A stretch of DNA of 64,000 nt. It comes from Rhynchonema sp. JSB1_4 (taxonomy: Eukaryota; Nematoda; Chromadorea; Monhysterida; Xyalidae). The notes under the pieces are model-generated. The model was not told the DNA's origin and made no database searches. It was given only the letters and a program-made list of their open reading frames with translations. A program made the position numbers and the translations under genes. Below, one piece after another: positions 186-64,000 of the stretch (positions are counted from its first letter, which is position 1; each line of letters starts with the position of its first letter). The stretch spans positions 62,001 through 126,000 of the forward strand of contig JASAMV010004066.1 of the NCBI GenBank assembly GCA_030248065.1, in the 5' to 3' direction.

Positions 186-1533
186 AACAAACACACAGGA
201 AACAGGAAAGGGGCAGCAGAGTGTGCTCCTGCTCGCACCACTCTGAACGTCGCGATGTAATCTTAGTGTCAATCGATACACAACCGCCAAGAAATCTTTG
301 CACTTGACCATCAAATATCACTGAGCTGGATCTACTGAAGTTTTGAAGTTTTGAAGTTATTTTTAGAGAATTCCGCCTTGATACTCCATTGTAATCGCAT
401 TGTAAGCCCAGCAAGCTTACGATAAATCTTTTAAACATGCAAGTTCCAGTCTTACTCAACTGATTTGGTGCACAAAAGAAGCAAACCGCAAAGCGAGTGT
501 ATGCTGCCAGCTAAAAATTGCCTCACGTACTTGTTCAATCATGCACAGCGTGTCAGGTACGCTGAGTGCCCGGTTGAGCTGCTTCTCGCGTTTGTCAGAG
601 TTCAGCCTTACGGTATATTCCCTTGCGCTGTGCGGCACAGCTTCATACCATTGCTCTTGAGTTGCACCAAAATTGCCCACCATCATTCACCCAGCACGCA
701 CTTCTTGTATTATACTTCGACCATTGCGAAAAATATTTAAAAAAAATGTTTAAAATACACACGTAATAAATTGATTCTGGCCCATTTATTCGTGCGTTAC
801 TTGTCAAGCGCTTTTCCATCGTCATTCACATTGGCTTCCGACCAAGTCCAACCTTGTTTTTCTGACGTTTGGCGTTCTGTCTCGCCCTGTCGGCCTGTAC
901 TGTGAACTTAGTAAATTCAGCCTCATAAATCTATTGGCAACATCAAATGGAATAATTTCCAATAAAAACCAAGCAAGCCGAGCGCACCCGTATCAGCATG
1001 TACTGCATGTATGTACATTTAGGCATTCAGTTAATGATCACCACAGATTACATCAATCAAACGCAGCTATAGTGCGCACAGGATGAACGACAGCATGTAC
1101 ATATGTACTGTAACGCAGCGGTTTCATTTCGCTGAAACACAACATTTGCATTATAAACGGGATGGGAATTGCTTGGAAACAGACTGGGGCCGTGACCAGA
1201 CAGTCAGGCCTGACGGAATCACGTACATGGTGGAAAACGAATGCAATGCAGGCAATTTTTCACTCGAATCGACCATGCAAGTACATTGCGCATATCGGTT
1301 TCGCCAGTCTGATGGTGCAATTTACAATTTGTCTCAGCGTGTTCCATGTTGTCAGACCCTCAAATTAATTACACGGGCACACACGTAGTGCCCACGATGG
1401 GCATGGCAGTCCATAACACGATAAGCGTTCTGCTCATAGAATATCAAGCAAGCATCGATCGCAATACGCATTTTGTGCATGCGATATGATGCGACTAACT
1501 CGTTGCCAGCCGTGACGAGCGACAGATCTCACA
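186..1533. other. Intergenic region upstream of the fusion GT92 gene
   Basis: No gene is supported here; the short open frames look like chance. From about 900 onward the sequence is recognisably similar, in patches, to 7140-8815 upstream of the second GT92 gene: the ATGGAATAATT...CCAATAA block, the GTACATTGCGC block and the GTTGTCAGAC block. The duplication that made the two genes therefore included at least 600 bp of 5' flank, presumably with the promoter. No TATA box or initiator could be fixed. Confidence 0.5.
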
Positions 1534-4500
1534 ATGGCGCCACTTCGTTTCATCAGAAAACTGCTGGTGATCAGCGCATGCTTGTACTTCTTGTTCGAAA
1601 TACGTTTACGCATGCAGCAACAGCATCACTATGTTCTCGAATTTGATCGTAGACTTCACGACATGCGAGACAAACTGAAGATTATCAATAATGGCGTCTC
1701 AAAGTACAAGAGCACTTTTGTTGAGAAAAACGCCGTTCTGCTCCGGCCTGCACCTAGCTACGGCAATTCTACTGATGGGAAGAGAATAGATTTTTTTACT
1801 AGTAGGCGAATGGATATGCAACAGAGCACACCCGTGGCAAGGACGATATCGGAGGTTGCCACGGTTGCCGTGAACACGACTGCGTCTGTCCTGAACAACA
1901 GTACCGTTCTTCAAAAAACTTCTGTTCAAACAACAAAGAAGGCTCTCGCCAAAGACAATGATGTGAATTCTATGCTGTTGGCAAATAGGAGCTGTGTCGT
2001 GACAACCAGAATGCTGAAGAATAGACCTGCTGTCAATAGACCCAATGTCAACCCGAAACCGGTTCGGCACTTCGTGTACCACGCCTTGCACGGAACTGAC
2101 AATCAGCAGACCAAGACTCAACTCAAGTGAGCAAAGTTTATTTTTCTTCTGCGTTGGATTTTGCCCAAATGCACGTCTATGCTGCATAAGCAATGATCCT
2201 TTCTCAACCCACAGGTCGTTCTGTGAGAGCGAGCACCTATCGTGCCTGACCTACTGTCAATGTGGCGTGTGTGAGCATCCAGCTGAATGCTTCGAACGTT
2301 ACACTGTCGCTGATACTAACATTGAGCGAGGATCATTCACAGTCTCACGAATGCGTGACGGAGGGTGTTGCACAAAGTTTGCACAGTTCACTAAGCACGG
2401 CATTGACGGTGAACCACATGTTTCATTTCAAATTCCGATTTTTTCTGTTCACTAACAAAAAATATGACGCCGCATTGTTGTCCACAACAGGTATCGTCGA
2501 CCACTTTCCCTTGTCAGCACCAGGCAATCGAGAGTTTTTGAACCACGTCGTCCGACCAGATGCGTTCAGATTCACGATATTGAGGAATCCAGTTGATCAA
2601 TTCATATCGTACTACAAGAACATCGAGGTCAGGTGAGTCCTTACGCTTTTTTAACCGTGTCATGTGGCAGTTCACGTGTTGTAATATGAACCCCAGGTAC
2701 CGAGCGAAACTGCCGTCTTTAAATTTGACCACGGTTGTTGACATGTTCTGGACAGCAGTGCAAAAACGGTCCTTGGCTAACGTTCCGGTGGAGTTGCACA
2801 ATTTACACCATATCCTCACAAATTCCCAGTCAAAGGAGCTTGGCTGGTCTGGTTTGTCGGACCATCCTCTGCCTTTCGTAACCACCAGTTCTTTTAACAC
2901 AGTTATCACTTGGCCAATTTGCAGGTGTCTTTTGGAACACCGACAGTCTTAATTCAACCTTGGCTTATCTTCGTTCTTTGGACTTCGTTGGTTTTTCTGA
3001 ACATTTGCCGCAGGCGTGGAAATCACTGCGTCAGCTGCTGGGGTGGAATGCAACGTACTTCAACGGGTACCTCATGCAAGTGACAGCTCTTCTTGGCAAT
3101 TCACACTTCGTGCGCTTTTTCATTTCAGCAATGAAAAATCTTCAATTGGCGTTCGCTCGACCACGATGGTGCCAGATGAAGAAACGAGTGTCTCCAGTCG
3201 AACCAGCGTCTCACAACAACAATCAACAGTGGAAAAACAGTCCACAACGAAGCAGCCTGCCAGGATCAAGACGAGGCAAAAGCGCAAGCGCATTCGAAAG
3301 TGGAAAGCAGCAAGATCTAAAGGAAACTTTTTCCCACGCGAAAGCGTTCGTGCGAAATCTCATGAGCACACGAAAGAATACAAAGACAAAAGAAATAGTG
3401 AAGTCTCAGCCTTACGCAGAACCACGAACTCTGCGAACAAGGAAGGATTTGGTCAAAATAATGAAGTTAAGTCCCGTCGACGAAAGAGAGAGACTGCTCT
3501 GAATAAAACGATAATTATGGAACCTGCAAAGGCACCCGGTTCAAGCAACAAACAGGAGAGAGAAGACAACTCAAAGAAGGAAGACCTCGAAGAACTCGTG
3601 AAAACACTAGTGCCACAGCAAATTGAACGAATCAAGGAAATCCAGTTTGCGGATATAATTTTGTATGCCGAAGCCAAGAGGCTTTTTTCGTCTGAAGAAA
3701 GCGCTCGTGACAAGATCAAGCACAGCATTATCAACGGCTCCTGCAATCGCCCACTACATTCCCTCAATACGTCCCAGTGTTGGTCGTACGGATCGTACAC
3801 GCTGCCAACGTATCCTGCCTACTACGATCAACGAGAGCAACAACCAACAATAAAGGTCTTGATGTACGGACCGAAAGAGTCGTTGACAGTGGACTGTTTG
3901 TTGTTCACAATGAACAACCCCAAAGCGGCGAACAAGATTCGATGCGCACCGCCTATCCTGTACGACCCCACGGCTCCGCATCGCATGTCGAACAATCCCA
4001 GAATACCCTATTGGCCGATGTATCTCACGTGTGTCCCACCTGTCGGCACAATGACCAACAAATTTCTACGCAACATCACACACATACAACTCGTGTTCAG
4101 TCCGCTTGATAAGAGCATAATCGATGTGGATAAAAACCCAAATGTAGATCGTTGTCTGATGCCGTTCAGCATCGTTCCTTCACTTCAAATGATCAAGGGT
4201 CGACAATCGGCTAATCCCGGCACCCGAAAGCGGCTGGATGCATGCGTGAAAGTTATGGACCGTCAGTTTAGTGACTGGATGCTGGTTTTGTGGTTCACCG
4301 AATGGTACTTGCATGCAGGTGAGTAAACTTTATTCAGAGTAAAAATGGGTTTTTTGACTGACAAGGGGTGAAAGCGTGAAAAACTCACCCAATTCAGGAG
4401 CTACACACTTCTGGGTGTATCGCCTCAACAATTCGCCAAATGTGGAGTTGATATTGCAATACTACGAAAAAGCCAAAGGAGTCTTTACTGTTCTACCAGG

Positions 4501-5204
4501 CACTGAAGAAAATGAGAAAACATTCAGGACTGAACATCGCATGAACGTAACTTGGTTTTACTTGTTCCGTTAGAACAGTCACAGCCACAGCAATGCGTTA
4601 TTCGTTACAGGCCATGGATTGCATGTTACGACTATCGGGCCACGCCGACTACGTGGCAATGGTGGACTGGGACGAACATTTAGTGTACAGAGACGCCAGT
4701 CTCAACACACCCGACTATCTCATGCGAATACTTGAGGCCGAATCGACACCGACCACAGGTGCATGGTCATGGCGTCATGTGTTCACGTTGGACTTTCAAA
4801 GCTTTCGAACAGTTATGCGTAAACAAGCTGCTTATCGTCACGCTGATCAAACCAATGGACATGTCTCATTGCGAAACGTCAGGTCTGACGATCTTCGATT
4901 GTACTTCAATTTGATGCCGAGTAGCCAGGTACATGCGTCGATGCCATTGGCGAGGGACAACCGACCCAAGCTGATTGTGCGTCCCGAGTACGTGTTCCAT
5001 ATCATCACACACAGTGCTCATGGCTTTCTGGATGGTCGTGGGCAGAAATTCCTATCACCCGACAAATATCTGATGTTTCACACGCGGCGTGAGAAACCAG
5101 ACATCATTGAGCCTACTGGGTCACAAATTATGCTTAGTCCTTTTTACTACCACATGAAGTTTTGTGCTGAACGAATTATTAATGTGGTCGACAAGATCAA
5201 GTGA
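1534..5204 (+). CDS. Type II membrane fusion: galactose-3-O-sulfotransferase-like module + GT92 (DUF23) glycosyltransferase
   Basis: Eight exons give a consistent frame: 1534-2126, 2215-2408, 2491-2632, 2697-2851, 2925-3066, 3129-4318, 4398-4546, 4611-5204 (about 1052 aa). The N terminus has a cytosolic basic stub and a signal anchor (LLVISACLYFLFEI), so the protein should be a Golgi type II enzyme. Residues about 175-600 align with Gal3ST sulfotransferases: the 3'-phosphate loop ILRNPVDQFISYYK, the ELGW block, GFSEHLPQAWKSLRQLLGW and DIILYAEAKRLF. A basic Ser/Lys/Arg-rich insert (about 415-560) interrupts this module. Residues about 603-1052 are GT92, with the DWDEH acidic motif (4665-4679) and LMFHTRREK near the end. 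The single exon 3129-4318 carries both the sulfotransferase end and the GT92 start, so the fusion does not depend on a splice guess. The PAPS 5'-phosphosulfate loop is degenerate. GT92 enzymes such as C. elegans GALT-1 add galactose; activity here is inferred. Confidence 0.82.
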
Positions 5205-5634
5205 TTATGGTCATTGCACGATACTCAGCCCAATATTTCGTTGGAAGCATCGTTTGAGCCACAGAAACATTGAAAACTTTTCAAACAAGCTTTGTTTCAT
5301 TTTTGTCTGTGATTGCGAAAAACCAACAAATTGCAATGAATAAACAGAGGTGCAAGGAATTATGATGCCAACTTGAGTGCGTACGAAAAGGAAGAATGTC
5401 GCGCCCAATATTGGGGATCAATCGATTGATTGAACAGTGTTGACTTGCGGCAAACCGGAGCTGCTGACCACGGTGTGCGTATGGAACGTTCAGATAAGAT
5501 TGTTATCGGTTGATACTGAAAAGACAAACTCAAAATTTTTTTTGCGAGCTCCCCACGCGTTTAAAAGATTTTGGACGTGCGTGTATTGCATACTGTCACC
5601 AGAACCCAGTGTGGATGACACCACTCAAACAGCT
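5205..5634. other. 3' flank of the fusion gene
   Basis: No gene seen. An AATAAA polyadenylation signal candidate lies at about 5338-5343, some 135 bp after the stop. Confidence 0.4.
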
Positions 5635-5822
5635 AAAATCAAATATGCAACTATGATGTTCATATCATATTACTGGCACAGAAATCTGACTGCAATAATC
5701 GAATGCGTGTGATGGCACTAAATTCGAAATAATATCAATCGATTAAAAAAATAAATTTTCTTTATTGCTTTCTGCTGGTATCAATCGTTGCTTTGCTTCT
5801 CGTTATCGTGCAGGAAACAGGC
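5635..5822. repeat. Direct repeat, copy B (partner of 1-185)
   Basis: Near-identical, same-orientation copy of positions 1-185. Together the pair brackets the first GT92 gene and marks a tandem duplication unit of about 5.6 kb. Confidence 0.8.
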
Positions 5823-5989
5823 GTGAGAAGCACTCAGCTGCTGAAATACGTAGATGCACCAGGCCAGGCCAGTAAAACATCACTTTCCTTGATTCAAACT
5901 TTTAGGCTCTAATTATTTGCTTCGGCACCCTATGAAGGATTGTGAAACAAGTGGGGTACGTTGCAGTCTTACCCATACTTGAACCCATA

Positions 5990-6320
5990 GGATGTGTTGA
6001 ACATAATCACACACCGCGTTCGTGGCTTTCTGGATGGTCGTGGAGAGAAAACTATGCTCAGTCTGTTTTAGTACCACATGAAGTTTGTACTGAACGATTT
6101 ATTAACGTGGTTGACAAGATAAGGTGATTATCGCCACTAAATGTCCATTCTTGGTTTTCGGATGTTACGCTTTCCCATATTCATTGCATCCTGCATCAAG
6201 GCTCAGGTTTGTAATGAATACATTGATGGATGGTGGATAACACGATGGATTGCGTGTTGCGGCCGTCGGGCATGCCGATAACGTGGCAATGGTGGACTGG
6301 GACGAACATTTGCTGGACAA
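5990..6320 (+). pseudogene. Scrambled GT92 fragments
   Basis: Two pieces of a third GT92 copy in the wrong order. Positions about 6000-6127 match the C terminus of the fusion gene (the SWLSGW-type stretch, then TERFINVVDKIR and a stop; compare 5004-5204) with an internal deletion. Positions about 6225-6310 match the start of its last exon: the MDC start, HADNVAMVDWDEH, then a frame loss. The C-terminal piece precedes the more N-terminal one, so this is a rearranged relic, not a gene. Confidence 0.75.
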
Positions 6321-7511
6321 AATGAGGAGACGCGCCTTCTAAATGCCTGATTATGCCATCATTATGCGTTTTTTTCGGTGCTGCTTTTTTAATTTCATTC
6401 GGAGTAGCTCCCCCGAACAATTCAACCCTTGTGTTCATGACATGGCAAATGGTATATTGGCGTTTCAAAACTCACTCCCCTATGTTAAGGATAATGCACA
6501 GGAAGTGCATGTAAATGAAATTCAGTTCAGCTAACAATTCGGAACCAGGGATTTTTGGACACGAGGCATCAAAATATGGACATGATGTTTCGGTCCGAGC
6601 ATTCTGGATCCAAGAATTTGGTGCCAACCCAAAACTTGGGGCCTAAAGTTAAAAGTCCATGGATTCCGCTAAAACTTGGGTAGCAGGGGGTTTCGGTCAC
6701 GGGGAATTCGAATACGGGTTTAATTTATTTGGTTTGATCTTTTAGGTGCAGAAAATTGCACGGATCAAAATTCTTAAAAGAATAAAAAATGCTCGCACTT
6801 TGCTGAAACTTATGCCATTTGTGTTTTCAGACACGGGGATTTCGAATAGTTCCGGATATTTGGCAAATTTTTTGGTTCGAGCATGTTGGTCCAAACAAAG
6901 AGAACCGGTCAAAGTTGGATCAAAGATTCAGAAGTTCTGGGGTTGACTGGTTCTGGTTCTGAGTGCTCGGACCAAAAAGTTATGCTCATAATCGAATTCC
7001 TCATGTCTGAAAACATATGGTGCCTGTTTTTACCTGAACTGAAATCCATTTCCACGCACATTATCCTTAACTTGGGAGAGTGACGTTTGAAACACCATAT
7101 GAGTTCATGGCTGGTCCTTTCCGCTGTGAACCCATCACTGCTAACCTGACAACTCCATTGCCAATGTAGATGGAATAATTCCAATAACACAAAGCGGACT
7201 GCGTTCGTATCAGCGCATAGGTAACTATGCAAAATTATCATCACATTTTTGATCAATCAAATGTACAGTGCGTACCAGGACGAGTGATTGTGCAAAGTAT
7301 GAACAGGCGCTTTCGTTCCGCTAAAGGCAAGAATGCGATGTAATGCATATCATCGGGACAATGCAATGTCATTGGGATTGGGATGGGATTGCTTTGAAAA
7401 CGAGCGCGGATAGAGCGGCTAAGCTGTGAGGTCAGGTGTGATGGAGTATACATACAGTACTTGGAGGAAAAGGAGTGCACGGCAGACATTTTTCTCTCGA
7501 ACCGATTTGTG
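6321..7511. other. Intergenic, no gene seen
   Basis: No supported coding. From about 7140 the sequence becomes similar to 920-1330 upstream of the fusion gene. The 6540-7080 stretch has loosely repeated phrases (for example GGATTTCGAAT) and may be old transposon sequence. Confidence 0.35.
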
Positions 7512-8815: not shown

Positions 8816-10533
8816 ATGAAGCCACTTCGTCACCTGAAAAAACTGCTGATAATCAGCGCATTTGTCTACTTCGTCTTCGAAATGCGTAGACTCATACAAC
8901 TACAGCGACAATATGCTCACGGGTTTATTCGTAGACTTCACGACATGCGAGGCAAATTGAAGCAGCGCATCATCAATGGCTCATACAATCAGCCACTGCA
9001 CTCCATGAGCGCATCTCAATGCCGATCCTATGGATCCTACACGCTGCCAACGAGCCCAGCTTACTTCGATCAAAGGATCGATCCGCCAGCCATCAAAATC
9101 TTGCTCTACGGCCCAAATCAGCGGCTCACTGTTGACTGTATGGTGTTCATCAAGAATAGTGTGAAACCTGCCCTCAAGATTAACTGTGCAACCCCGACAG
9201 CCTACGATCCGAAAAGCAAGTACCACATGCTGAACATTGCCAAAATGCCATTCTGGCCAATGTATCTGACATGTGTGCCCCATGGGAGCACAATGGAATT
9301 CGTGCGCAGCATCACGCACGTACAACTCGTGTTCAGCCCACCTAATAAGAGCATAGTCGATGTCGATCGGAATCCAACGACCGACCGATGTTTGCTGCCA
9401 TTTAGTATCGTGCCTTCATTGCCGAAACCACCTGGGTTACCAGCATCGGCAGCTCGAGCACGCAAACGACTGGATGTGTGCGTAAAAGTAACAGATCGCC
9501 TGTTTGATGATTGGATGCTGATTCTGTGGTTCGCCGAATGGTATTTGCATGCAGGTGCGTGAACCACACCTGCGGTCTCGAAGTGCCTATGTATTACTTC
9601 ACTTGCTGTCGAGGTAAACTATTTTAGGCGCCATACATTTCTGGGTTTATCGTCTGAGTCACACCCCGGACGTGGAGCTCATCTTGCGACACTATGAACG
9701 GGTCGCTCAAGCGTTTACTGTTCTGCCCGCCGTCGAAGAAAATGAGAGAACCTTTTGACGGAGCAACGGATGAACGTTAGTCATTTATATTCAGTTGAAG
9801 TGTTTTTAAGCTGGTTCGCGTCCTGTCAACTTTGCAGCCGTGCACGCGGCGTTCAGTATGTGAGATTTGTAATTGCTGTGTCATTGCAGGCCATGGACTG
9901 CATGTTGCGACTGTCAGGTCACGCGGATTACGTGGCAATGGTGGACTGGGACGAACATTTGGTGTACAAGGTGAGGAGATGGTCCCAAAACACGTGCGTA
10001 TCGTAAGTCCCTGCTTGTACCATCAGGACCCGTCACTCAACACAGCCGACTACCTGCTACGCCTGCTCGAAGCTGAATCCACACCAACAACAGGCGCCTG
10101 GTCCTTCAGGCATGTGTTCACGCTAGACTACAAGAGCTACCAATCCGTGGTTGGAAAAAGACGCAACGATAGAAGTGGGTACTCGTTGCAAGCGGTCACC
10201 GTAGGCGATCTTCAACTGTACTTCAGTGCGTTGCCGAGGCGAACAGTTCTCGCGTCTGAGCCGCTTGCGAGGGACAATCGTCCCAAAGTGATTGTGCGTC
10301 CCGAGTACGTGCTGCACATCATTCCGCACAGTGTCGAAGCGTTTCTCGACGGGCGACGGACAAAATTTCTCTCGCCGGAAAAATATCTGATGTTTCACAC
10401 ACGCCGAGAAAAACCGAATATCGTTGAGAAGACCGGGTCACATATAATAATGAGCCCATTTTATCCCAACACCAAGTCCTGCAGCAATCGGATCATTGCG
10501 GTGGTTGACAGCATTAAAAATTCTTTGGAATGA
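8816..10533 (+). CDS. GT92 (DUF23) glycosyltransferase, plain form, with a frameshift
   Basis: Four exons by homology to the neighbouring fusion gene: 8816-9554, 9628-9775, 9890-9970, 10027-10533. The N terminus (signal anchor LLIISAFVYFVFEM, then RRLHDMRGKLK) runs straight into the GT92 domain with no sulfotransferase module. VDWDEH and LMFHTRREKPN are present. Exon 2 is 148 nt against 149 nt in the paralogue: after ENERTF one base is missing and the frame hits TGA (about 9757-9759), so the C-terminal half, including the DWDEH exon, is out of frame. It is either a young pseudogene or a sequencing error. The intron at 9971-10026 is absent from the paralogue. Role by family: Golgi glycosyl (galactosyl) transfer. 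Confidence 0.75.
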
Positions 10534-12190: not shown

Positions 12191-15100
12191 TTATCCGTCC
12201 ATCCCGCCAGCCAGCACATCCCGCAACTGTGTGGCCGTGCATCTGCGCTGTGGCTCGTTGGCCCAACAGCTCAGCCAGGTTTCCAGCACGTTTGGTGCGA
12301 CTTGGATGTTGTCCGCAATTGCCAGCCGACCGCCGCCACCAACCAGTGCGCACACTTGCGATTGTGAATGGCCGAAGTATGGCACCATCCCGAATGTCAG
12401 CACTTCCCACATCAGCACACCTGGGTTGTGAGGGGAAAGCATTGGCGATGAAGACAATGACGAGGACCTGGTGCACCGCCGGTCTGGGCGAGCAGGTCGA
12501 AACGGGCAAGCACAAACACGCTGCATCTGAACTCGCATTGTCAGGCAAAGAAAACTGCGGGAGAATGCAGTCGAAGCGTTACCAAAGTTGATGGTCGGAT
12601 TGCACCTGGCAGGGTCGCGTCAGATCCTTGAGTTACTGATGATATTTACTGATGATAGCACGAGTTTCAAGCTTCAAAAATAAAGTCACGCGGCCAAGGC
12701 AGATAAGATCCGATAACCAACTGTGATACTCAATGCTTTTCGTTGGTTTATTTACAGCTCAGAATGTTTCATGGGTATGATACCTTAAACCGAAATTCCG
12801 ATTCGTTCGATTTCTTTTCATTCTCTTCCCCTCGAACGTAACCAGAAACAATCATCGTTTTAACTTCACTAAACAAACGTACCGAGTGCCCATACATCAG
12901 AAGCGCAACTGAACATTCTTGTGTCTTTGCCCATACATTCAGGTGCGAGCCATCGGACAGCCAACGCCTCGCCAGCAGCAGCGCGCACTGTTAGCGTGTG
13001 AGCCGGCTGATGTTTCACACATCGCGCCAGACTGAAGTCGGCCAGTTTGACGTGCATATTGGTGAATAGCAGACAGTTGCGCGCGGCGATGTCACGATGT
13101 AGCCAGTGCTGTGCGTGCACGTGCGCCACCCCGTCGCATATCTGTGTGATGGACAGCGACAATGCAAGGATGGGAGGGGGTGAGTGAGGGTGCCACCCAC
13201 ACCACAGCCAACAACATCACATCAGGCTTAGTGATCCGATCTGGCTTCGTCATGTGACATGTATGAACTGAGGATATTTCGAGCTTTATGGTTCGCCCCA
13301 GAATGTCAGTCAGTCCAAAGCGTGTCCAGTTGCTGCCTCCTCGGGTCGAAACAAAACCAGCAAAACTTGAAAAAAGCCTCACAAGACAGGCACAAGTCCA
13401 ATCCGATTTGATCACCGTGTTTGATACGGGTCCACGTGATTGACTGGTAAGCATTGGTCGCACAACGACCATATAAGAATTCATCAAACCAATCCTGATT
13501 TTCACGTTCAGTCACTCTTAACCACTGTGCTATTTGCGATTCTCACAAAACATTTTCGGCTAAAAATAAACTAGCAGAGCACCCACGTTGCTGCGGGTCT
13601 GAAACATTTTGGTGACTGCATGGTTTGTGTGTGATCGCAGCGCAACGTCATTGCCACGTCACTTTCCTGCTTCACGATTCAGGAAAAAAATTTGACCAAT
13701 TCTTATAAAGTCATTGTGCGACCAATACCTTCCATACTCATGTTTGATAATCTCATGAGAAGGCACAATAACAGACAGCAAGTTTGAATTCTCACGCTGT
13801 AAAATCTGCTGCGTTATATCTGACGGTCAAAACGCGGTTGTGCTGGTTAGTGCTTCATACCTCACATATTAAAATCTTAAAATTCCGAGTTACAATGTTA
13901 AAAAATCTAAATTTCATCAGCAAATCTCATCTCAATTTTCTTCTTCATGCTTCTTACGGTTAGCGTAGATCATTCAGAACCTTCGTCCTCCAAGCCACCG
14001 TCAATTAATGGCTCACCTGGTGCACCAATCCAATCAATTCATGCGTGGTCGGCAAGCTCACATTCGAGTACGTCTCCGTGTCCAGGCAATTGGCTGATGT
14101 TTCACTGATCGCACGCAGCCACGACCTGCGGCGACGATATAAGGGTTGATTGTTTAACATGTGCACGATATACAAATTGAAACATTTTTATAAAAGGTTG
14201 GCGATACTGTATATGGGTCGGTGTGTTGTGCTGTACTGAAATATATTTCGTCTGATGTTTCACGTGAGAATGACCTTGAGAGCAAGTTGACCCGTTAGCA
14301 ATATCAACGCACAAAAAGTGAACGGCCAACTAACGTCAAAAAATACCAAAAATACATTTATGGTACGGAAGCAACTGCATTGAAATTGACACGATTACGC
14401 AAATTACTACAAACTCCAATGATCTGATCGGACTGCGTGAAAAACAGAACACCGCCGCTCATAATGCTCTTTTATGCCATTTTTGCGGGAGTGCCCAGCT
14501 GTGACTCATCCAAACATCCCCAATATCCACCTGAGATCGCCGTATTCAGCGTATTCAAGCACGACACAGCCAATGTGCACGCACGAACTCAACACGCACA
14601 CGATGTGGGCATGTGGTCCGATGCTTTGCAGCGCAGACAACTCGGTCAGGATGTAGTCCGTGGATGGGGCTGGGGCTGCGATGGAATGTTGTAGGCTGAT
14701 AGTAATTCATGCACTTGGCAATTTGACTGGACAACATATCAGCAGGACAATGTTCTTTACCAGTAGTCATCTTAGCGTGAAACATCAGCAGTTTCACCGC
14801 GCAGACATGCGTGTTTTTATGCACCAGACTAAACCAACGTCGATGTAACTCAACTGAAAAGTCTATCCATCAGTTCATGGCACTTAGGTTCAGTTTCCGT
14901 TGTGAAAAATTGTTCCTCCGCAAGGCAATGTTAGAGAAGACGGCACACAAAAAAATAAAAACCGATTTCTTTTTCTTTACTTTTTCGTAAGCCAACCGGA
15001 ACCGGAACAGCACTGGATTCTGTCAAGCTTTTCAGCAGACAAAAAATGTCATGAGCTGATGGATGGACTATACAAGTGCTACTGTTTATACATCTCACTC

Positions 15101-44806: not shown

Positions 44807-45929
44807 TCGTTAAACAGCAAAAGAAACGAAAAAATTTGATCAGCAAATGGCGAACACTGAAAAGCAACTATGTCAATGAGACCCATTTTCTCTGACATTG
44901 CGTTTTGCACCGGAACTTATTTTGTAATGTTGACCCCAGGACTTGTCACATGTTTTCACTGAATGCGACCGAGTGCACTGGAGTTAAACCCCGCAGCCGC
45001 CCCTCAGCCCAACACCATTTCGTTTTTCTTAGCAATGCAAAACAGCTATTTAACTTCCTGGCTCTGTTTTCTGGGTATTCGTCACCCCCAGGCACGCGGA
45101 TTTGCAGCATACCACACTCGGAGGACTCTCATTTGTTGCAAGTGGAGCGCGCGAAGCCGTTTATCTTGCGAAGCGTCGCCCTGTGCTTCCCGGTCGCGGG
45201 GGGGGGCGGAATAGGCGGACCCCCCTTTTTTCGGACCGGGAACAGACGCAGCCACGTCGGGGAGAAAGGGCGCGGGAACTTGGAGATCGAGGGGGGTTGT
45301 CCCCCCCAGTACGGTAGGTATCCGCCTCCTCGCCTGGTACAGTAGGTAACCCACCCCCAGATGTTTCGGACGGTACAGTAGGCCCCCCCGCCAAATTTTC
45401 ACCGCGGTGCAGTGCCCCCCCCGGTTTTGCCTCAAAATTGGCAATTTCTGACCAAAATGGCCAAAATTAGTGTTAAGCCAGTACTTTTCAGCTCAAATCA
45501 CCCAAAAATCGCGCGTTAGGCGCGTAAATACCACGCTTTCACACGATTCGACACATAATAAAGACATTAAAGATTTCGACCTAAAGGCTAACCCCTGCAA
45601 CCTCCTTGAACCGCCCCCCCCCCCCCGCCTAGGTACATTCCCCCCCCCAGACCATCGCCTCTGGTATAGTATGTATACCCCCCTCAGAACGGGGTACACT
45701 AGCTATCCTCACTCGACAGTACCGACAAGGTTGGGATGGGGGAACGGAAAGGGAGGGAGGACCCAAATTCGACGAAAAGTCATTTTACCACTTCGAAAAT
45801 TTCACGCATTGCCGACTGAATGTACGTTTTGTGGAGATTTTCAGCACGTACGACATCACCCGCTGCCACACAAGTAGTCTCGCGGGAAAGCATACTACCG
45901 TCTGTCGGACAACAAAAAAAGAAACTGAC
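44807..45929. other. Divergent intergenic region with decayed elements and C/G runs
   Basis: Separates the minus-strand gene starting at 44806 from the RING gene starting at 45930, so it should contain both promoters; none was recognised. At 45190-45740 it holds CGGTACAGTAGG units, long C runs (for example about 45613-45626) and an inverted copy of the GATTCGACACATAATAAAGACATT family also seen at 32300 and 52840. Confidence 0.4.
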
Positions 45930-48900
45930 ATGGCGGACTCCAAATTCGCGGTACTTCGTGCATACGATGAAAAATTTCTAGATTGTCTCTCTTGCGCAAT
46001 TTGCTTGGAGATTTTCACCAACCCCAAAACGCTGCCGTGTGGACACACATTCTGTGCCGTAAGTGATTTCCATTCCAGAGATCGGAGGGCGTTTTCGCCA
46101 ACATGATTACAATTTACTAATTGGAACATACACAGGAGTGCATCACATCATCTACCACGCACAATGTTGAACGCGGACTGGAAGCCGGGGTTTGTCTCAA
46201 ATTATGTTGGTCGGTTTGGACCCTTTGGTGTCTTGGTTAATGACTCACGAGCAGACATTGCTCTTGCGCAAAGATGTCCGCACAGATAATTTTGTGACTT
46301 TTTTTGCCTCTAAGACGGGGCCGTTCAAATCACCACTGGATGTATTTTGGTTAGGGGAAAATAGCTAGTGCACAACAGTCAACGGTCTGGAGGGGGTTAC
46401 ATAATCAGGGGGCGGATGGTGGCCGGCGTTGGGGCGGGGTTGGCCTTCGATGTCAAAATTTTTAGTCTGCTCATTACATTTGGATTCTAGTGAAAACGTT
46501 GCACTTCGGCCTCTGCGCGCCAATATGGTATAATTTGCGCTAAAAAGCGGCCCCCTTAAAAAGTACTGATTTTACATTAATTTTACATGTTTTCGTCAAA
46601 AAAGGAATTTATTGAGGCACAATCGGGAGGTGCACCTAGTGTAACGGGGTCAAAATCGCGGGTATATCCATTGAAGCACACGAAACATCCGGGCGGCAGG
46701 GGATACCTATTGGAGCAGGCTTGAGTCGCCCCCCCCCCCCCCGACCCCCGACATCGGTTGAATACACCCATGCACAGAGGTGATCTGGACAGTTTTGTAT
46801 GGCTCGAGTTCGTCCCGCTATCGATGGAGTGTAAAACCTCAATCATCTTGAACAGGTGACGCAATGTCCACAGTGCAGACAAGTGCATGACGTGACGTGC
46901 GCTCAACTCCGCACGAATATGTCGCTGGCCAACATGTCTGACCGCGTTCTGACAGAGGACGGGGATCTCCACAAATATCTGTAAGTTGGGATGTCATGCT
47001 CCAAGAACAGGAACCATGCCCCGCGGTGCTTTGTCATAAGTGACACGGCAATGAACTTGTATCTTTAATCTGACAACTACACCCACCTTAAAAAAGGATG
47101 AGTCAATTTCAATGCTATCATTCCAGCTGAATATACATCCTATCTTGCAGTCACACCTGTGCGTGTGGGCGTGTCGATCATATCGACAACTTTTACATGG
47201 GTTCGACTTTTTTTGACCGATGTTCTCGCTGTGCTTTGAGTGCTGCCAAGGAAGCAAACACGCCCATCGAGTCAATCCGACAGGTGCCATTCGATGACTT
47301 GGTGGAGGCAAAATACAGTGCGTTTTGTTGGGACACAGTGCTTCACAGAGCATATAGCAATGCCATTTCGACAAAGTACCGAGGCGAGTACTTTTCAAAA
47401 CCGCTCATTATACAGAACACATGAACGTCGCTACGCTGCAACGCACCGCAGATGAAATGCGACTCGACATAGATGCCTTGTGTCAGAGCATCATCCGTGA
47501 CATCACTGTGACCAACGTCGGAAAGAACATTGATGCATTGGCACTGAGGACGGTACGTACGCAATCTTTGCAGTATTTTGACAACAAAAAAAAACAATTT
47601 TAACTCAAGAGCGTCATATTGTGTGGCGTCACAACACATCGTAGCTGCATCGTGATAGTCTGACTTCTCATTTGTGACTTAAACGGTTGCGCGCGGGACC
47701 TCACCATTGTTAATCACCACCCACAACTAGGAGCGAATCCGCACGAGTGTTGGAATATTTCGCTTTCTGAACCACGATGGCGATCCCGGTTGGTTGGCGG
47801 CAAAGAGGCGCGATCTGCGAATCCTACAGGAGCTGAAGAGTCTACACGAACTAGCAGCCATCAGCATGGCGCGCAAGCAATTGCAAAAGGTTGGTGTTCA
47901 CGGTTACGCATGCGCTGTTAGCAGACCTAGGTGAAACTTGGGTTCTTGACCGCGACCTTTAGGAGTGCAAAATGTCCGGGATGACAATGAGCACCGGCGA
48001 CAGTTCTCACCTTGCCACAGCACTTTAATCCGTCAATAAAGTCCAAAGATGAGTCAATCCGGTGTTCGCAAACATGCATTCTTACTGGTTCTCTCTCTAA
48101 TTTCATGTTGAACGTCTGTATGGCATGTACGTGCGCTGGCGCAATTTGTCGCTGTGGATCTCGGAGCGTTCGCATGGCCCGATGCACAAAGGAGATGATG
48201 CCCACGTGCAGAGCGTCCTCTCAAACACAGCGTACCCGATTGATGATTCTTATTCCGGACCCGATTTTTGGAAAAATATATGAATGCTCACGATATTACT
48301 ATTCCCATACCCAGATTTCATGACACCTATGAAACTGTTTTCTTTCTGGAAAACTTTTGAATTTCTTTAATTTTTGAATAACACCCGCACGGTTTTCTTA
48401 TGATAAAATGCCTTCTTTGCTCGCCTGCGAATTTGATTTGTTTGTTTGGGCCTTACAGTTGCTACGCACTGAGCGTTACATGCGTGACGTTACCGTTATT
48501 CGGGCTTCAATTTTTTTGTCATGCCCCTAATGGTTGAAAAGCCAGCATCGCAAAATCACACTCTTGAAAACGGGAGACCTTTTCCAGAAGTGTCAGTATC
48601 AGGTGTGAAATCCCATTTTCAGTTACAAAGCGTACAACTGTATTCGCTTCAGAGTGTGTATTGTGCATAAAAGAACAAGATTCCCTGACCTGAAATATGT
48701 ATAATTCTGACAACGACGATGAATTGCCATCAGGTGTTATCGACGACATGCTCAGTCTGTCGAGAGACCCCGTGCTGACTCCGCCGCGAAACGACAACGA
48801 TGAGCAGAAAACCCCAATTTCTTCGCAGATTCATACCGGGATTCATGACGACAGCGTTTCTGCGAAAGCAACGGTTGGCGAAGAAAGTGCTGTGTGGAAC

Positions 48901-62986: not shown

Positions 62987-63272
62987 ATTAACGGCGTTGC
63001 CGTTAGCGTGCTCCGTCCGCTGCTCCAGCTTGCAGAACATTCCCACACGGTTAACGGTGTTGCCGTTAGGGGGCTCCGTGCGCTGCTCCAGCTTGCAGAA
63101 CATTCCCACACGCTTAACGGAGTTGCCGTTAGCGGGCTCCGTCCGCTGCTCCAGCTTGCAGAACATTCCCACACGATTAACGGTGTTGCCGTTAGCGGGC
63201 TCCGTCCGCTGCTCCAGCTTGCAGAACATTCCCACACGATTAACGGTGTTGCGGTTAGCGGGCTCCGTCCAC
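62987..63272. repeat. 63-bp satellite, block 1
   Basis: About 4.5 tandem units built on GGTTAACGGTGTTGCCGTTA, then GCGGGCTCCGTCCGCTGCTC and CAGCTTGCAGAACATTCCCA. Unit length 63 bp by spacing of identical landmarks (for example 63181 and 63244). Just left of it, GTGTGGGAATGT is an inverted piece of the unit. Confidence 0.95.
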
Positions 63273-63384
63273 TGCCTGTGCTATAGCTACCATAGCTAAA
63301 TGTACCGGTCAGCGGCCGGCGGGTCCACGAATTACGGCCCCAAAAAGGAAGCTTAGCCGACTGATGTTAATGGACTGCAGATCA
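63273..63384. mobile_element. Insertion between the satellite blocks, shared with 30.8 kb
   Basis: Non-satellite sequence containing ATAGCTAAATGTACCGGTCA, GCGG and later AATTACGG. It matches the reverse complement of 30770-30815 over about 50 bp. Probably part of a transposon that inserted into or was captured by the array. Confidence 0.5.
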
Positions 63385-64000
63385 CTCCCACACGGTTGAC
63401 GCTGATGCCGTTAGCGGGCTCCGTCCGCTCCTCCAGCTTGCAGAACATTCCCACACGGTTAACGGTGTTGCCGTTAGCGCGCTCCGTCCGCTGCTCCAGC
63501 TTGCAGAACATTCCCACACGCTTAACGGTGTTGCCGTTAGCGGGCTCCGTCCGCTGCTCCAGCTTGCAGAACATTCCCACACGGTTAACGGTGTTCCCGT
63601 TAGCGGGCTCCGTCCGCTGCTTCAGCTTGCAGAACATTCCCACACGTAACGGTGTTGCCGTTAGCGGGCCTCCGTCCGCTGCTCCAGCTTGCAGAACATT
63701 CCCACACGGTTAACGGTGGGACATTCCCACACGGTTAACGGTGTTGCCGTTAGCGTGCTCTGTCCGCTGCTCCAGCTTGCAGAACATTCCCACACGGTTA
63801 ACAGGGTTGCCGTTAGCGGGCTCCGTCCGCTGCTCCAGCTTGCAGAACATTCCCACACGGTTAACGGTGTTGCCGTTAGCGGGCTCCGTCCGCTGCTCCA
63901 GCTTGCAGAACGTTCCCACACGGTTAACGGCGTTGCCGTTAGCGGGCTCCGTCCGCTGCTCCAGCTTGCAGAACATTCCCACACGGTTAACGGTGTTGCC
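63385..64000. repeat. 63-bp satellite, block 2 (runs off the window)
   Basis: About nine to ten further units, mostly exact, with a few shortened ones near 63645 and 63715. Because 63 is a multiple of three and the unit lacks stops in some frames, open frames arise on both strands; these are not genes. Confidence 0.95.

Follow-up and report, generated by a model that had tools for sequence, protein, structure and literature searches.

Structure of the fusion gene

The window analysed here is a stretch of 64,000 nucleotides (nt) of genomic DNA from the nematode Rhynchonema sp. JSB1_4 (assembly GCA_030248065.1, contig JASAMV010004066.1; C2468:62001-126000 in our searches, which covered a genome of 204 Mb in 5,747 contigs). 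At positions 1534-5204 it holds a gene in which a sulfotransferase-like module lies inside the stem of a GT92-type glycosyltransferase. Eight exons join to one stop-free frame of 1,052 codons, with GT-AG borders at all seven introns. The predicted protein of 1,052 residues consists, in this order, of a type II signal anchor, the sulfotransferase module and the GT92 domain. Scanned as a whole it exceeds the Pfam cut-off for Glyco_transf_92 (PF01697; 84.2 bits at residues 779-1019, cut-off 23) as well as for Sulfotransfer_2 (PF03567; 25.6 bits at residues 276-416, cut-off 22), the latter match covering just profile positions 72-200 of 252.

All features of the gene lie on the forward (+) strand. 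Exon 1 (1534-2126) encodes the GT92-derived type II signal anchor and stem (1534-1790), followed by inserted stem and a degenerate 5'-phosphosulfate-binding region (1791-2126). Exons 2 to 5 belong to the sulfotransferase module. Exon 2 (2215-2408) covers its Cys-rich part and has intron positions common to paralogues, exon 3 (2491-2632) holds the invariant His of a DHFPL motif together with the 3'-phosphate site, and exons 4 (2697-2851) and 5 (2925-3066) complete this part. Exon 6 (3129-4318) is composite and comprises a basic linker, the last sulfotransferase helix, the right junction of the fusion and the GT92 stem with the N-terminal half of the domain. The linker (3160-3567, residues 420-555) is of low complexity and contains two furin-type RX[KR]R sites starting at residues 458 and 526. 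The C-terminal sulfotransferase segment KTLVPQQIERIKEIQFADIILYAEAKRLF (3601-3693) matches C-terminal exons at the loci C824, C35 and C3127. The remainder of the GT92 part is encoded by exon 7 (4398-4546) and exon 8 (4611-5204), which also carries the stop codon; an AATAAA at 5339-5344, 3' of the stop codon, is a possible polyadenylation signal.

Exon 8 contains the motif DWDEH (4665-4679, residues 874-878), which is of the metal-binding type; in GT92 enzymes we take DxD(E) to have this role. Each of 16 aligned GT92 rows shows D-x-DE; these rows include the fusion and its tandem copies. A pattern scan for DxDE, which proved too strict, gave one match in 30 GT92 loci. In the window an Rfam scan yielded no match and ARAGORN no tRNA.

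The insertion site and its empty counterpart

Just upstream of the window lies a tandem neighbour, an intact GT92 gene of 538 codons (C2468:59840-61611; L019:359-2130). It has a related anchor and stem and a GT92 part that is 97.5% identical to that of the fusion on DNA level, without a sulfotransferase. BLASTN aligns both genes in two arms, L019:321-612 with window positions 1493-1790 and L019:610-2703 with 3696-5821. The segment in between (1791-3695, +) is missing from the empty-site copy. It measures 1,905 bp and contains five introns and 512 codons in frame (1,536 nt). An AGA triplet is found at both of its edges, which are thereby fixed to within 3 nt. The left junction (1790/1791) falls within exon 1, the right one (3695/3696) within exon 6. 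Genomic DNA bearing most of a stand-alone sulfotransferase gene sits in frame in the exon 1 that codes for the GT92 stem, and this DNA came without a signal anchor and without a stop codon of its own.

Apart from the repeated AGA, no terminal inverted repeat was seen at the insert edges (1791-3695), and we reject an insertion borne by a transposon. An origin of the anchor from the sulfotransferase is likewise rejected: the anchor is matched at E < 0.2 solely in the three tandem GT92 copies of C2468, and the other five rows have E >= 0.2. The 4 kb preceding L019 show no match to the fusion protein. The assembly contains one copy of the fusion; a second allele was not seen.

A further tandem GT92 paralogue without the module is located downstream (8816-10533, +). 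The initial annotation had derived the insertion from this copy, whose anchor is followed directly by GT92; by eye this is correct, with the addition that its second exon carries a 1-nt frameshift. The insertion into the GT92 stem is supported, and the intact upstream copy provides the stronger evidence. The proposed fused architecture in one spliced frame is borne out as well, and exon 3129-4318 does cross a junction, namely the right one.

Origin and relatives of the sulfotransferase module

A genome-wide search with the module gave at least 117 exon matches, five of them within the fusion and the others at about 35 loci (grouped by eye). For 23 of these loci gene models were built by a spliced aligner with the fusion as query; some models hold doubtful micro-exons, and that of C3127 seems to combine parts of two genes. 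The models are shorter than the fusion at the linker, residues 426-560 having been removed from the query. In 20 of the 23 models at least one of the five module introns occurs in the same position and phase (introns 1-4 in C5081; 1, 2, 4 and 5 in C3342a; 1, 2 and 4 in C2124 and C2124b), and only C3127, C2094 and C3754 have none in common with the fusion. Introns at the positions of stand-alone genes argue for an insertion of genomic DNA, and a retrocopied insertion is therefore rejected.

Several relatives possess the ends that the module is devoid of. A hydrophobic N-terminus upstream of the cofactor loop in the same exon is present in three of eleven loop-bearing frames (C5081, C3342a, C2124b; by eye), and in C824, C35 and C3127 a stop codon follows within ~25 codons after the last-helix segment. 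The closest relatives share just 50-55% protein identity with the module outside the loop, and the donor gene was not found. The three loci C146, C4932 and C5116, all on short contigs, carry near-identical sulfotransferase genes, which may be haplotypes that the assembly kept separate or recent copies.

PF03567 is passed by the fusion and by two of six paralogues, the other four reaching 16.0-21.7 bits against the cut-off of 22. Gal-3-0_sulfotr (PF06990) is passed by none of the six; four stay below the cut-off, two are not listed and the best score is 17.1 bits. The fusion module, scanned alone, reaches 12.4 bits for PF06990 against a cut-off of 27, and this family does not appear in the list for the whole protein. 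At E 0.01, five of eight relatives match PF03567 and four match PF06990. Hence the expectation of the initial annotation that profiles would recognise a sulfotransferase in 2100-3700 held for Sulfotransfer_2 and failed for Gal-3-0_sulfotr, and its label 'Gal3ST-like' is not retained; Gal3ST identity is rejected. Within the sulfotransferase superfamily the module is a distant member with Sulfotransfer_2 as its closer family and Gal3ST further off, and since four of six paralogues fall below the PF03567 cut-off the family assignment is itself distant.

In a tree of the relatives, built without seven of the 24 rows that were near-copies or poorly modelled (C3115, C4254, C3754, C2825, C4932, C5116, C3342b), the fusion has a branch of 0.45 compared with a median of 0.76. 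A search with the full fusion protein returned no match at E <= 1 among 4,045 scored candidates of 0.55-1.75 times its length, and an alignment of eight relatives none at 0.001 among 2,090 candidates. Against solved structures, a profile search gave four rows with E 0.13-0.75, taken as chance, and a single-sequence search one row, the sulfotransferase 3rnl, at a non-significant E of 1.2. Comparing the match lists, which are lower bounds in a fragmented assembly, no other GT92-sulfotransferase fusion was seen in the genome. Contigs with matches to both families are C2468, C4932 (~14 kb apart, on opposite strands) and C824 (~27 kb apart).

The module has lost its cofactor loop and probably kept its fold

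Sulfotransferases use 3'-phosphoadenosine 5'-phosphosulfate (PAPS). PMC11625862 describes the lysine of the 5'-PAPS-binding loop as catalytic and highly conserved, with a role in stabilising the transition state, and counts Lys or Arg at this place as part of what defines a sulfotransferase. The fusion has neither. Its loop (2080-2103) reads HALHGTDN where relatives show HALHKTGS, so that the lysine, the glycine and the serine of HKTGS are gone. All 16 readable rows of the group to which the fusion belongs, including all 11 placed with it by the tree, have the lysine, within K-T-[GA]-[ST]. Five of the counted rows (C3342b, C3754, C4254, C4932, C5116) owe their place in the group to likeness and not to the tree; three of them (C3342b, C4932, C5116) nearly duplicate other counted rows. 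The loop is not readable in C2825, whose model does not include it, and in C3115, which is unaligned there.

In a second group (C3127, C35, C2939, C4368, C2094) the loop lysine is replaced by His or Asn, hence its loss is not unique in this genome. Possible inactive or unusual sulfotransferases of this second group are the loci L055, L044, L052, L068, L069 and L070.

The 3'-phosphate-binding motif RFTILRNPVDQFISYY (2568-2615) is better preserved. RNPVDQFIS in the fusion retains the Arg and the Ser of the site, and an Asp is replaced by Asn. The same replacement is found in C2825 and C3754 and other ones in C146 and C3708, which makes this change less meaningful.

Eight stand-alone relatives share 45 invariant positions, 41 of which are unchanged in the fusion. 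Three of the four departures fall in the 5'-phosphosulfate loop and helix (K->G, S->N, R->K), and the fourth is D->N at the 3'-phosphate motif. They thus affect four of ten positions in cofactor motifs and none of 35 elsewhere (one-sided Fisher test, 0.0014; 0.02 with a wider motif definition of 18 positions, the grouping having been chosen after the data were seen). Without the loop, the module resembles its relatives about as closely as these resemble one another, with identities of 0.50-0.55 to its seven closest rows and of 0.35-0.59 among the eight relatives; in a 20-residue loop segment it matches the eight relatives at 8-11 positions, versus 12-19 among them.

With a PAPS loop that lacks lysine, glycine and serine, the module is most likely incapable of sulfate transfer. 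Judged from the 35 intact invariant positions outside the cofactor motifs, the fold is probably kept for something other than catalysis. The initial annotation had proposed that a single protein adds and then modifies galactose, and it is this part that the changed loop (HGTDN for HKTGS) speaks against.

The GT92 tandem cluster and the timing of the insertion

The GT92 family is expanded in this genome (at least 64 exon matches). Within the cluster on C2468, the copy at 8816 has one extra intron following the DWDEH motif, which the fusion and the upstream copy do not have. Remnants of another GT92 copy are located at 5989-6136 and 6245-6330: the first is C-terminal, and the second comprises the DWDEH region and, behind it, sequence resembling the extra-intron donor of the 8816 copy. 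Because of these remnants the cluster may once have held more GT92 copies.

The two sides of the insert differ markedly in their similarity to the upstream copy. In the left arm (anchor and stem) both genes are 77% identical (dN 0.26 and dS 0.35 for non-synonymous and synonymous changes, 84 codons), and the left arms of all three cluster copies are about equally distant (77-79% on DNA level). Of the first 60 bases to the right of the insert, 52 are identical. From ~3756 rightwards identity is higher, with 97.5-98% for exons, 91-92% for both introns and 94% for the 3' flank. For the right part, dN is 0.016 and dS 0.058, with 14 synonymous and 18 other differences; dN/dS of GT92 is 0.27 (NG86) or 0.38 (YN00). 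The sharp switch of identity near the right side of the insert suggests that, once the copies had split at an earlier time, gene conversion or unequal crossing-over exchanged the GT92 part and the 3' flank between them. As the GT92 similarity was probably reset by recombination, it does not date the insertion. Since two of the three cluster copies are without the module, an insertion is the simplest reading.

Other features of the window are an exon of a tyrosine-kinase-type gene (12872-13216, -), an exon of a RING-finger gene (45633-46103, +) and, closing the window, a tandem array of 63-bp units (62987-64000). The two exons, along with the shortness of the introns, point to animal DNA.

Possible role of the module

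Taken together, we favour, with a probability of about 50%, a chimeric gene in which a GT92 enzyme carries in its stem a fold-preserving, probably inactive sulfotransferase that is used for binding of an acceptor or a partner. Transcription would proceed from the own start of the GT92 gene and yield a single Golgi protein of type II whose GT92 domain would be functional, as suggested by the kept DWDEH and by the dN/dS against the neighbour copy. The sulfotransferase-fold stem would hold this domain off the membrane and would no longer transfer sulfate. Its likeliest use would be to bind a partner enzyme or the acceptor, be it a glycan or a glycoprotein, and to present what it binds to the GT92 domain; such a role appears most economical because the fold keeps its invariant positions outside the cofactor site. 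A more specific version is put forward tentatively: the retired sulfotransferase may have been recruited as a glycan-recognition stem, with the acceptor groove kept and the PAPS site lost, which hands one particular glycan to the GT92 domain. The predicted protein leaves room for variants. An isoform without the module core is possible, given that exons 2-5 form a block of 633 nt with equal phases whose skipping stays in frame. That the GT92 part might be freed by cleavage is speculation prompted by the two furin-type motifs of the linker.

A number of observations weigh against this interpretation or are weak points of the gene model itself. With respect to the gene model, the donors after exons 5 and 7 are weak, scoring 2.6 (3066) and 3.0 (4546), values reached by 49% and 40%, respectively, of GT sites in the first 12 kb, and the linker (residues 420-555) shows no in-frame codon-usage signal. 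With 28 of 35 aligned bases, the 5' flank that the fusion has in common with the empty-site copy is short, hence it is a guess that both use the same promoter. Among the 19-mers of the protein the most hydrophobic ones are N-terminal, the best one having a moderate mean of 1.49, so that membrane insertion is predicted rather than evident. Concerning the module, PF03567 searched across the genome exon by exon picked up C3828 as its single locus and missed the fusion as well as the paralogues; in the tree 10 of 14 inner branches are poorly separated, so that the nearest relative of the fusion is not placed. The departures of the module are ordinary in number, as the eight relatives, left out in turn, depart at 1-7 invariant positions, never at the lysine; what stands out is their location alone. 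With the GT92 part lying downstream, the frame has to stay open in any case, and its openness is no proof of module function. Finally, the loss of the loop may be recent and decay elsewhere yet to come.

Some of these points are shared by the explanation that survives best next to the favoured one, in which the insert is an inert passenger tolerated in a flexible GT92 stem, the module being idle or spliced out and decaying. This appears possible, if rather doubtful. The lost loop and the silent linker would fit, and removal in frame could occur in two ways, by joining exon 1 to exon 6 around the symmetric block or by a single intron between a weak donor after 1801 (score 2.6) and an acceptor before 3698 (5.3), as worked out by hand. 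Against a passenger, all 35 invariant positions outside the cofactor motifs are kept, the branch in the tree is not long, and codon usage, with training solely on the gene's own GT92 part, favours the coding frame in the sulfotransferase exons.

That the protein is a bifunctional enzyme, whose GT92 domain adds a galactose which the attached sulfotransferase then sulfates, is unlikely. Both domains do share one frame, and the histidine of DHFPL, a candidate catalytic base, is kept along with the Arg and Ser of the 3'-phosphate site. In contrast, only one of the two active sites is retained, the GT92 motif, and the loop residues gone from the fusion include a lysine lost in none of the 16 readable group rows; moreover, the module does not pass the Gal3ST family model.

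Still less probable is the reverse order of events, in which the fusion is the older state and the upstream and the 8816 copies have deleted the module. The nearly equal distances of the left arms would agree with it, and the GT92 similarity, probably reset, does not date the split of the copies. However, two separate losses would be needed instead of one gain, and the flanks are joined in the upstream copy with a mere 3-nt overlap.

Two transcription units, or an artefact of assembly or annotation, with no single protein being made, are very improbable: AATAAA words do occur in exon 6 at 3502 and 3849 and the gene is present once in the assembly, but both junctions lie in frame within exons, the 5' flank and anchor match the own start of the GT92 copy, and, of the twelve best 19-mers listed, those outside the N-terminus do not exceed a hydrophobicity of 1.01.

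Under the favoured reading of a GT92 enzyme with a non-catalytic sulfotransferase stem, the locus suggests how a dead enzyme fold can turn into a specificity or scaffold part of a live enzyme. A recognition stem, if true, would constitute a new route to acceptor specificity for a Golgi glycosyltransferase, with the unoccupied site persisting next door. As two families of glycan enzymes are fused here and the empty site lies in the adjacent gene, the event can be read almost to the base. Should the module be active after all, a two-step glycan-building protein would be of still greater importance.

Comparison with known systems

Like other members of GT92 (PF01697), the fusion has the family domain above the cut-off, an N-terminal anchor and the DxDE motif; it differs by the 512-residue insert in the stem. 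GALT-1 of C. elegans is a characterised animal enzyme of the GT92 type. It galactosylates core alpha1,6-fucose, as a passage in PMC6422873 has it, and GT92 enzymes of Arabidopsis are beta-1,4-galactan synthases according to a title cited in PMC10151413.

The Sulfotransfer_2 seed consists mostly of chondroitin and heparan sulfate sulfotransferases, as given in part of PMC11625862. The module passes the cut-off of this family (PF03567) and has a 3'-phosphate site, and ~35 further related loci exist in the genome. In contrast to the family it has no anchor of its own, its PAPS loop is degenerate and it is fused to GT92; two of six relatives pass the cut-off. The likeness to Gal3ST (PF06990) is weak and confined to a sub-threshold similarity around the 3'-phosphate site, for the module and for four of six relatives, the remaining two not being listed.

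Full-text literature searches, in which titles and abstract openings were considered and most subscription journals were outside the scope, brought up no description of a GT92-sulfotransferase fusion. To our knowledge the nearest precedent for a glycan enzyme with an attached sulfotransferase fold is DSEL. This glycan-modifying epimerase has an extra sulfotransferase-like domain, as outlined in a section of PMC4920151. It differs from the fusion in being an epimerase instead of a glycosyltransferase, and its extra domain is C-terminal and not located in the stem. NDST, according to an excerpt of PMC3733922, is a single protein that acts on glycans as a sulfotransferase and in a second, different way. 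Here both activities are real, and the partner as well as the family differ from those in the Rhynchonema fusion.

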